From assembly GCA_022843925.1 (NCBI GenBank), contig JALHMS010000032.1, positions 4,620 to 49,492 of the forward strand: DNA of 44,873 nt, given 5' to 3'. The notes under the pieces were generated by a model. That model made no database searches. It had not been told where the DNA came from and was given only the letters and a program-made list of their open reading frames with translations. This DNA comes from Burkholderiales bacterium (GTDB lineage: Bacteria; Pseudomonadota; Gammaproteobacteria; Burkholderiales; Ga0077523). A program made the translations under genes and the position numbers. Below are positions 14,422 to 21,555 of this stretch, piece by piece; the first letter of the stretch is position 1, and every line of letters begins with the position of its first letter.

Positions 14422-14940
14422 TCAGCGGATGCGCCGCGCGGTGAACTCGTCCTCGATGCGATCCTGGAAGAAGCTTCCCGGGGAAGGCGCCGCCATCAGG
14501 CGGCGATGAAGCTCCGGCGACACCCGGCTGTACTGCACGATCGATCCGCCGGGAAACTCGATGTGCAGGGAGCCACTGCGTAGCCTGCGCGGTCGCGACG
14601 GAGGTCTTCCGGGCGGATGAGGCGAAGGACCAGGCCGACGTCGATGCTGGAGGCACTCGTGCAAGCCGGCCTGTGCCGACAATGTCAGCCGCCCGGAAGG
14701 CCCCGTCCCGGAGGGTTGCGCCGCTTGGGTTACGTGGAACTGCGATCGCTGGCCGCGTTGCTCGGCTTGTCGATATCCCGATATCGACTGCGCCTCGCGC
14801 GTTGCCACCGGTCGCAGTTGCGTGACTGTTCCGACTGCAACGCGATCCGCGCAGGCTATGCAGAGGCTCCCTAGCGTCTGCGACGACGGGTCATGGCCGA
14901 CCGAGCGGATCCGCGTACTGGTGAGGCGCTTGCGTTCCAT
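14422..14940 (-). pseudogene. KTSC-domain gene interrupted by a MITE-like insertion
   Basis: The two ends of this 172-codon frame together make one KTSC domain. Residues 1-23 read MERKRLTSTRIRSVGHDPSSQTL, here broken as MERKRLTSTRIRSVGH and DPSSQTL; the last 47 begin HIEFPGGSIVQYSRVSPEL and continue with MAAPSPGSFFQDRIEDEF. Joined they give ~70 residues, the size of a KTSC protein (I-x-x-V-G-Y-D ... L-x-I-x-F-x-G ... Y-x-x-V-P ... S-x-G-x-F). Between them lie 306 bp that are low in protein character and bounded by inverted repeats. The frame stays open, so a chimeric 172-aa product is possible, but the domain is split in mid-strand. The start lies 8 bp after the DUF302 stop, so it belongs to that transcript. 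Confidence 0.8.
14568..14871. mobile_element. MITE-like element (304 bp) with 25-bp terminal inverted repeats
   Basis: The left end 14568-14592 (GGGAGCCACTGCGTAGCCTG...) and the reverse complement of the right end 14847-14871 (GGGAGCCTCTGCATAGCCTG...) match at 23 of 25 positions, and the match extends inward with one indel (TCGCG). No transposase is encoded. Removing 306 bp (element plus 2 bp) restores an uninterrupted KTSC gene, so the borders are supported by the host gene. The flanks (CTA and TG on the host strand) fit an imperfect TA/TG or CT(A/G) target duplication. Inside is a perfect 9-bp palindrome at 14769-14788 (GTCGATATC, two C, GATATCGAC). The mobilising IS family is not determined. 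Confidence 0.85.
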
Positions 14941-15915: not shown

Positions 15916-16617
15916 TTAGTTCGGCCTACCCGCTACTGGAAAGGGCCACGCTGCCGGTGCGGACACGGGCTTCGGCGCGGCGACCGCTGGGGCCGGGGCA
16001 ACAGCCGGCTTCGCGGGTGCGGCCTTCTTCACGGCCGGCTTCTTGGGTGCCGCCACCTTCTTCGGCGCAGCGACAGGCTTCTTCGCGACAGCAGGCTTCT
16101 TCGCGGCAGCCGGCTTCTTGGCGGCTACGACCTTCTTCGCGGGTGCAGCCTTCTTCGCGACGGGCTTCTTCGCGGCGACGGGCTTCTTCGCTGCGACGGC
16201 CTTCTTGGCGGCGACGGGCTTCTTCGCTGCAACCTTCTTTGCCGCCGGCTTCTTGGCGGCGACGGGCTTCTTGGCGGCAACCTTCTTCGCTGCCGGCTTC
16301 TTCGCCGCTGCCACCTTCTTCACTGCCGGCTTCTTGGCGGCAACCTTCTTCGCCACCGGCTTCTTGGCCGCAGCCTTCTTCACCGCCGGCTTCTTGGCTG
16401 CAGCAACCTTCTTTGCCGCCGGCTTCTTGGCGGCGACTTTCTTTGCCGCCGGCTTCTTCGCCGCCACCTTCTTCGCTGCCGGCTTCTTCGCCGCGGCGGC
16501 CTTCTTCACTGCCGGCTTCTTCGCCGCAGCAACCTTCTTCACCGCGGGCTTCTTCGCCGCGGCGACTTTCTTCGCAGCGGGCTTCTTCGCCGCAACCTTC
16601 TTCTTGGCAACTGCCAT
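15916..16617 (-). CDS. Histone H1-like Lys/Ala/Pro-rich DNA-binding protein
   Basis: A 233-residue low-complexity protein starting MAVAKKKVAAKKPAAKK. Almost the whole length is built of AAKKPAAKK / AVAKKPV type pentad-to-decad repeats; the last ~35 residues turn to PAVAPAPAVAAPKP and end WPFPVAGRPN. No globular domain is present. Such proteins (AlgP, HctB/BpH1 type) bind DNA non-specifically and compact the nucleoid. AGGAGGT lies 6 nt before ATG 16617, an unusually strong ribosome binding site here, so abundant expression is likely. Being a DNA repeat, its length probably varies between strains. The reverse strand shows a matching AATFFAAGFF pseudo-frame that is not a gene. Confidence 0.93.
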   Translation of the reverse strand: MAVAKKKVAAKKPAAKKVAAAKKPAVKKVAAAKKPAVKKAAAAKKPAAKKVAAKKPAAKKVAAKKPAAKKVAAAKKPAVKKAAAKKPVAKKVAAKKPAVKKVAAAKKPAAKKVAAKKPVAAKKPAAKKVAAKKPVAAKKAVAAKKPVAAKKPVAKKAAPAKKVVAAKKPAAAKKPAVAKKPVAAPKKVAAPKKPAVKKAAPAKPAVAPAPAVAAPKPVSAPAAWPFPVAGRPN

Positions 16618-17378
16618 GTCGCTACCTCCTGATGAGAGTTGAACTACGCATTCGCGCGCGAACACTCACGACATCGACTGCCCTCGCGCGACTGCAGGGA
16701 CGCGCCAACGCAAGAAACATGCTTATCGCGTTGCGTGCCCCGTGCAGCCGTTTCGCGTGCCGATGTCGGACATCGGCATGCGCTCGTCGCGACGCATCGG
16801 CAGCGCACGCGATGACGCGCTCGCCGATCGATGCACGGACGGGATTCGTGGTCGGTGGGACCTCGGTAAACGAACTCGGAGAACTGGAATGCGCAACACC
16901 GGCACGCCCCCGGGAGGGTGCCGGCGCAGACGACACGTTGAAGGACGATGCGGCGAGGCGCCCTGGCGGCACCCGCCTCCTTCGCTCGATCACGCGGCTT
17001 CGCGACGGGATGTTCAGTCGCTGCTTCCGCTTCGAATTGCTGCTGAAGCTCGCTGCTCCTTTCACTGATCGGACCGCGCCGGAGTGCGATGGCTGGCTCC
17101 GGATACGTCGGCATCGCAGGCGGAACACCATTGCCGGCCATCGCGGCGCCACCCGGTGAGTTCCGGGCGACCCACCGCACCGACCTTCCATGCGACGCCG
17201 CACACCGGGCGTCCGTTCCACACCACACGTCCCTGGGCGATGCCGACCTGCTGCCCGTACGTTCGACACCCCGTCGATCACCCGGGGAGCCCCTGCAAAC
17301 TCGTCCCGCCGGAGGCGATCCGAGGACTGCCATCGGGGCGCGCGATCCACACGGATCCGCGCCCGTCGTTCGAATCCG
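16618..17378. other. 761-bp region without a clear gene between nrdB and the H1-like gene
   Basis: The region holds the upstream sequence of the H1-like gene and the downstream sequence of nrdB. Several open frames exist on both strands but have Arg/Ser-rich, GC-driven composition. One minus-strand frame between ~17068 and 17280 looks more protein-like (YGQQVGIAQGRVVWNGRPV, ending near QWCSACDADVSG) but has no ATG and no ribosome binding site. It may be a decayed gene. GTTCGAATCC at 17368-17377 resembles a tRNA T-loop, but the flanking bases do not pair. No terminator was recognised after nrdB. Confidence 0.5.
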
Positions 17379-18614: not shown

Positions 18615-18693
18615 GTAGGGCTCTTCTTCCTTTACCGGACCGCCCCGGTGGACCGTGGCCACCGGGTGCGATCGCAGAGTTGACGGAACCGCC

Positions 18694-21555
<2,862 letters not shown>

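Follow-up and report, generated by a model that had tools for sequence, protein, structure and literature searches.

The interiors of MITEs are usually taken to drift, and the layout of a REPIN is that of a mobile unit made of two inverted hairpin copies. REPINs are a published system (PMC3116915), and REPs are given a length of 20-40 bp (PMC3733652). Among the IS-derived MITEs of bacteria, QMITE1 of Coxiella has a fold of -193 kcal/mol and is reported to have no orthologues in other genomes (PMC5896051). Bacterial MITEs can also fuse in frame with genes, according to two papers (PMC2229807; PMC10969869). The DNA analyzed here, a stretch of 44,873 nucleotides from a Burkholderiales bacterium (hereafter, the window), contains at positions 14568-14871 of the plus strand a 304-bp element that represents what we call the double-hairpin family. 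It resembles IS-derived MITEs such as QMITE1 (PMC5896051) in being short and multi-copy, in having terminal inverted repeats (TIRs) and short target duplications but no transposase, and in its very stable fold; it differs from QMITE1 in the recurrence, across a class, of a single double-hairpin architecture whose junction is invariant. With REPINs it shares the inverted hairpin pair, found in 41 of 62 double-hairpin loci, although the second hairpin of the window copy was not detected by the covariance model; in contrast to REPINs, the module is about 119 nt long rather than the 20-40 bp stated for a REP (PMC3733652), and the family has TIRs of 25-32 bp and duplications of the CTAG/YTAR type. 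Similarly to the Rickettsia palindromic elements (PMC10969869), the window element is a palindromic element within a protein gene whose frame is open; in contrast to them, three stops interrupt the host frame at its orthologous copy in a sister species (G003), so that this frame is not open across orthologues, and there was no sign of kept host frames. No description of the double-hairpin family was found in the literature consulted, which consisted mostly of papers available without subscription; the Polaromonas JS666 MITE paper (cited in PMC10969869) might hold one. An Rfam scan of 15 loci returned no match on the elements, and in E-value mode the sole match in the window segment 14300-15100 was mir-2576, at 22 bits against a gathering score of 83. 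The family is a kind of MITE that is apparently undescribed; it is widespread, and its fold is conserved across many bacteria. The same scan recorded an anti-hemB sRNA (RF02837, 66.5 bits) at positions 61-148 of locus L188, about 1.3 kb from the element and outside it.

The borders of the window element were given by its inverted arms (14567-14592 and 14847-14872; 26 nt, 92% complementary), its copies and its fold. The left TIR, an IS5-like end, occupies 14568-14592 on the plus strand and the right TIR 14847-14871 on the minus strand; both were recovered by the arm search and by the end-pattern search, and the left one also by comparison with ISs. The coordinates and repeat quality given in the earlier note for the 304-bp block and its 25-bp inverted ends were indeed correct. 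In the genome of origin (G000; 5.57 Mb in 64 contigs), the element had eight near-full matches including the window copy, the other seven being 80-88% identical to it, and the end pattern occurred 25 times at three or fewer mismatches, against two occurrences for a reversed-pattern control, which together argue that the repeat pair is not a product of chance. Among 12 genomes of the genus, matches were obtained in four (own included) at an E-value of 1e-3 or better and in three at 1e-6, and G003 also holds several copies; the outcome that the earlier note had named as fatal to its reading, namely that no other copies of the ends exist anywhere, is therefore contradicted by copies in the own genome and in G003. 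The insertion point of the window copy is flanked by TGCA (14564-14567), a decayed target duplication, and by TAGC (14872-14875); the duplication of the window copy was scored with two mismatches in four. The orthologous copy in G003, with which the flanks were compared, is flanked by CTAG and CTGG. Flanks were readable for 18 genus copies, and in seven of these the 4-mers on the two sides were identical, being CTAG in five cases and CTTG in two. In a larger set of 74 elements, 21 had identical flanking 4-mers and a further 18 had 4-mers that differed by a single mismatch, counts that are biased upward since the offset was chosen to favor YTAR, whereas the adjoining outer 4-mers were identical in none of the 74.

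Eight pairs of occupied and unoccupied sites were compared, of which one was clean: a G003 copy (L104) lies between two CTTG, while the unoccupied site in the own genome (L128) has a single CTTG. Two further pairs (L105/L124 and L105/L118) had CTTG-like targets with altered flanks, L104/L119 had diverged, and L095/L117, L099/L143 and L096/L145 were uninformative. In the eighth pair, another G003 copy (L102) corresponds to a remnant in the own genome (L116; G000:C12:54550-54810), in which the final ~14 bp of the element are left; the L102 insertion thus predates the split of the two species and was later lost by partial deletion, the footprint suggesting a deletion at short homology. The 304-bp block is, then, a non-autonomous transposable element, a MITE with 25-bp TIRs: it is short, has no transposase gene, exists in multiple dispersed copies, and belongs to a family with target-site duplications and one clean empty site, even though the duplication has decayed in the window copy itself. 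The MITE-like nature claimed by the earlier note is thereby supported. As to the surroundings of other copies, two lie in the same orientation 3.8 kb apart in locus L094 (3465-3730 and 7251-7516), the latter (L094b) splitting a joined frame of 418 codons, and the copy at L096 sits inside a ~95-bp REP-like repeat (TAGGAGCGGGCCATGCCCGCGA...), which is of high copy number, often clustered, and present at dozens of places in G000 and G003 among the matches listed.

Folding of the window element gave -190 kcal/mol (z -9.7), a value that none of 100 shuffles reached. All six elements that were folded adopted a Y shape, comprising the TIR stem, a first arm, a short hinge hairpin and a second arm. In the window, the predicted Y has arm 1 at 14595-14709 (plus strand; GCGACGG to CCGTCCC), which is also matched at 14590-14719 with 82.8 bits by R2, a covariance model of 119 positions built from 28 diverse arms of the order; the hinge, a short conserved hairpin of the form CCC nnn GGG seen in the fold and in the alignments, at 14707-14715 (plus strand); and arm 2 at 14713-14843 (plus strand; GGGTTGC to GCAACGC), identified by the fold and by the inverted module copy in relatives, including L096 in the own genome. 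R2, which was built from arm 1, also detected arm 2 at 42 of 63 loci, and every one of the 42 matches lay on the opposite strand; L232 and L263 are one place, which makes the count 41 of 62. At an E-value of 0.01, R2 found no second arm in 21 of the 63 loci, the window included. In most cases, therefore, the element consists of two inverted copies of a hairpin module of about 119 nt arranged around a conserved junction. The G002 elements and a second subfamily of the own genome and G003 have a common interior and different ends. Both kinds of arm retained, at 90% or more, GCG..G at the foot and CCC nnn GGG in the hinge, together with a G and an unpaired C of the inner 5' strand and AC...G of the inner 3' strand, in which the A and the last G are unpaired. 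These three unpaired positions (C at 32, A at 79 and G at 84 of the module) were 94-100% kept in 105 arms of both kinds, class-wide.

Conservation of the pairing itself was then evaluated on alignments of increasing breadth. In the 17 genus elements that were aligned, two-sided change was seen at 38 of 88 pairs. In a hand-chosen alignment of 39 elements of the order (genus included), from which elements at contig ends, with unclear TIRs or of unusual length had been excluded along with several near-duplicates, 68 of 78 pairs had two-sided change, and 92.1% of the cells paired, compared to 67.3% after shuffling and 37-42% for slid structures, although the structure had been predicted from this very alignment, which favors it. 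Double-change cells numbered 741, against 229.6 in shuffles (sd 14.2; reached in 0 of 500), it being noted that these are sequence-by-pair cells rather than events and that they include the TIR stem. Agreement of the two ends in a TIR stem is to be expected of any transposon; nonetheless, with this stem removed, helices 2-9 retained two-sided changes in 42 of 50 pairs. In the 105 arm matches, which were fitted to the model and thus lean towards it, 93.4% of the cells paired compared to 62.8% in shuffles, and double-change cells numbered 860 compared to 273, while pairs with any two-sided change were in no excess in this set (25 against 23.9, with 96 of 500 shuffles at least as high).

The distribution of the module was surveyed with two covariance models. 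R1, built from arm 1 alone in 16 genus sequences, matched 34 of 399 genomes of the order at an E-value of 1e-4 or better (21 of 159 genera), E-values of such models being rough, and three of the 34 belong to the own genus, the source of the model. R2 matched 55 of 369 genomes of the class (48 of 272 genera), of which 52 belong to other orders and had no part in building the model; it also detected an element in G011 that R1 had missed. The spread is patchy even at short range, since R1 matched three of the 12 genus genomes and nine were without a match. TIRs are absent from both models and therefore offer an independent check, which was performed on the best-scoring genomes, one locus each (27 of 31 in the order outside the genus, and 19 of 52 in the class). 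Sufficient flank was available at 40 of these 46 loci, and TIRs scoring at least 30 were found at 38 of the 40, as opposed to one of 800 random positions in the same loci; the two misses were L171 (score 13) and L188 (score 26), the latter having a TIR, albeit a weaker one, and CTAG on either side. Most of the measured elements were 265-298 bp long, and some were longer or shorter. These results show that the Y-shaped doublet, complete with TIRs, is a recurring structure of the order and the class, and that its pairing is strongly conserved. Representatives include Halomonas sp. PA16-9 (NZ_CP040452.1; both arms, CTAG on either side), Azotobacter chroococcum (NZ_CP010421.1; both arms), Methylophaga frappieri (NC_017858.1; one arm) and Candidatus Magnetococcus massalia (NZ_LO017728.1; 39.6 bits), which is listed as an alphaproteobacterium. 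The one-armed Methylophaga match (18676-18805) is carried by a conjugative IncP plasmid, which might serve as a vehicle between species. In a search of plasmids, two elements of the class gave partial matches to plasmids of Methylophaga, Azotobacter, Halomonas and Magnetococcus, whereas the window element and two order elements gave none; a search of phages with one query returned no match. In one subfamily, the core of L209 (G055) is 91-93% identical to those of L168 (G153) and L224 (G248), although the host genomes belong to different families, which hints at transfer.

The ends of the element point to its candidate mover. DDE_Tnp_1 had a single match in G000, which lies inside an IS with MITE-like ends (1218 bp; G000:C14:70873-72090, corresponding to L093 2874-4091; ends GGGAACCTCTGCACAGCC and GGGAAGCTCTGCAGAGCC; flanks CTA/TAG, i.e., CTAG). 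Its protein belongs to the IS5 family (NF033581 at 344.3 bits, cut-off 140), also matches PF01609 and PF05598, and its end agrees with that of the MITE at 18 of 21 positions. G003 has a broken relative of this IS in three pieces of 92-93% identity, one of them with TAG. Elsewhere in the genus, the element ends of G002 (GGGAAGGACTG and GGAAGGTCCG) resemble those of the ISs of G007 and G011, which start with GGAAGGTCTG. Across the order, a transposase close to the resident IS was found in two of 16 element-bearing genomes; the IS ends of L229 (TAGGGAACCCCTGAACAAGTCC) are similar to those of other subfamilies, and the IS in L230 had no clear TIR around it. Transposases of the IS5 family would bind the TIRs and move the MITE in trans, and in the window genome the mover would be the resident IS. 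The likeness to IS5-family ISs (NF033581) comprises ends of the type GGGA[AG]CCTCTGCA and CTAG flanks, but the interior is unrelated, since R2 found no arm inside the IS at any of nine IS loci. Its single match there (60.6 bits, in L149 of G011) lies beyond the IS end and was for this reason rejected as an autonomous, arm-carrying form: at ~583-2040 of L149 (G011:C257), an IS5-type IS with GGAAGGTCTG ends has inserted at TTAA within the TIR of a GGGCCTGTT-type double-hairpin element.

What holds the core constant was approached by comparing identity between families over 648 pairs. The junction, whose columns were picked after viewing the alignment, was 80.9% identical, compared to 60.8% for the outer and 43.3% for the inner part of the TIR, 47.4% for the arm-1 stem, 52.1% for the arm-1 inner part and 51.1% for arm 2. 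An interior more conserved than the ends suggests a function of the core, or at least something other than pure drift, and, together with the two-sided changes of the arms, it makes directly testable the question of whether the core of a MITE does something. The fold and the invariant junction would then be kept by selection, most likely because both help the element to persist or move, either as a transcript whose structure insulates or undergoes processing or as a cruciform bound by protein; the data appear compatible with action as RNA or as DNA. Mutation might, however, maintain the arms by itself, because imperfect palindromes are known substrates of template switching, and correction of quasi-palindromes could alone yield conserved pairing, with two-sided changes arising in the absence of selection; the 13-bp segment of some copies, which lies in an arm-2 strand and by eye complements the opposite strand, would fit this process. 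Repeated switching should nevertheless erase mismatches, so that the class-wide retention of the three unpaired positions speaks against it, as does the junction, 81% identical where the arm-1 stem is at 47%, albeit in columns picked post hoc; we consider mutation as the only cause unlikely. The stability of the fold and the conserved unpaired letters would equally suit a structured RNA or DNA site that serves the host (e.g., a terminator, an RNase III substrate or a site for a nucleoid protein) and spreads by means of transposon ends. Such a service is very unlikely in our estimation, considering that copies also split genes, namely KTSC and the joined frame at L094b, and that some of the sites differ between sister species.

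A related question is whether one conserved core repeatedly gains the ends of different IS families, in the manner of SINEs. Several end types do occur within one genome, the genus subfamilies resemble the ends of different IS5-type ISs, and the best exception to joint descent, L175/L228 of G324, is 70% identical in the core but 32% in the TIR. On the other hand, all ten cross-family pairs with a core identity of at least 75% had TIRs that were 71-90% identical; close cores have close ends, indicating that ends and core mostly travel together. As a general rule, end swapping was therefore mostly unsupported, and we hold it to be decidedly improbable. A broader proposal, which we put forward tentatively, is that of a lineage of selfish DNA spanning the class within the Proteobacteria, in which an inverted doublet of ~119-nt modules with a selected folded core (RNA or cruciform) borrows the transposases of IS5-type and perhaps other elements through its ends.

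The remaining alternative concerns the host gene. The window has a stop-free ORF of 172 amino acids at 14422-14940 on the minus strand, in which Pfam KTSC (PF13619; 59.5 bits, cut-off 25) matches in two stretches. The 5' part of the gene (14872-14940, minus strand; 23 codons), delimited by Pfam and by alignment with G003, ends at the insertion point, and the 3' part (14422-14567, minus strand) carries the Pfam match at residues 123-166 and was recognized also from the intact KTSC of four relatives. The host gene has about 70 codons, to which the 304-bp element adds 306 bp (102 codons), in phase. All this bears out the earlier note, which had described two KTSC halves around the block and a 172-codon frame open across it. 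KTSC was present in six of the 12 genus genomes, complete in four (G002, G004, G007 and G008), an uninterrupted gene being what the earlier note had suggested looking for in relatives, and split in the window genome and G003. In G003, whose DUF302 neighbor proteins are 86-92% identical to those of the window species, the element is inserted at the identical base of KTSC; it is thereby shown that the element entered the gene before the two species split, and that the knock-out is old. Indels of 13, 5 and 34 bp separate the two orthologous copies; the 5-bp and 34-bp segments occur in other element copies and were therefore lost in evolution. The ancestral net insertion was then 311 or 298 bp, depending on which 13-bp state is older, and neither is divisible by three. 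With such a length, the KTSC frame was shifted at birth and the gene broken at the moment of insertion, leaving an old pseudogene, after which indels in the window lineage led to an in-phase, stop-free frame and those in G003 to an in-phase frame with three stops.

Considering this history, it is extremely improbable that the element has been recruited to supply a new segment of protein and that the 172-residue chimera is made and selected, as has been proposed for the Rickettsia elements. The window frame is open and in phase over the 102 added codons, in-frame fusions of bacterial MITEs are on record in the two papers cited (PMC2229807; PMC10969869), and both orthologous insertions ended as multiples of three (chance about 1/9), which could be called selection. 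However, the sister copy has its stops in the same frame, the ancestral length shifts the frame, and the two other copies with a plausible joined protein frame (L094a and L094b) have a net length indivisible by three. Moreover, the host frame stayed open in 1002 of 5000 dinucleotide shuffles of the element (20%), and at least one of the six frames was open across the element in nine of 13 copies examined; an open frame in the window is thus unremarkable and requires no selection to explain it. More generally, when a frame runs through a MITE in GC-rich DNA without a stop, this is to be taken as weak evidence of a new protein. A domain insertion with a selected chimera was therefore rejected, on the G003 stops, the ancestral frameshift, the 20% of open shuffles and the four intact relatives. 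Of the two readings that the earlier note had offered, the domain insertion caught in the act accordingly falls, in view of the G003 stops, the frame-shifting ancestral length and the chance openness, while the recent knock-out stands as a knock-out but not as recent, G003 having the insertion at the identical base; conservation of the middle as protein in relatives, which the note had named as evidence against itself, was not seen in G003. Between the two species, the KTSC halves have five synonymous and nine non-synonymous changes (omega 0.56), whereas omega for the neighboring DUF302 and DUF2944 genes was 0.14 and 0.30; the halves thus look more relaxed than either, on small numbers of changes. 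The window locus is of an ordinary kind, an old knock-out by a MITE with a reading frame that is open by chance. Taken as a whole, the evidence is very probably best explained by an old knock-out by a MITE that was mobilized in trans and folds as a Y, of an architecture that recurs in the order and the class. Downstream in the window coordinates, at 15916-16665 on the minus strand, there is an ORF of 249 amino acids with lysine/alanine repeats (AAKKPAAKK...), which we take to be typical of histone H1-like proteins.
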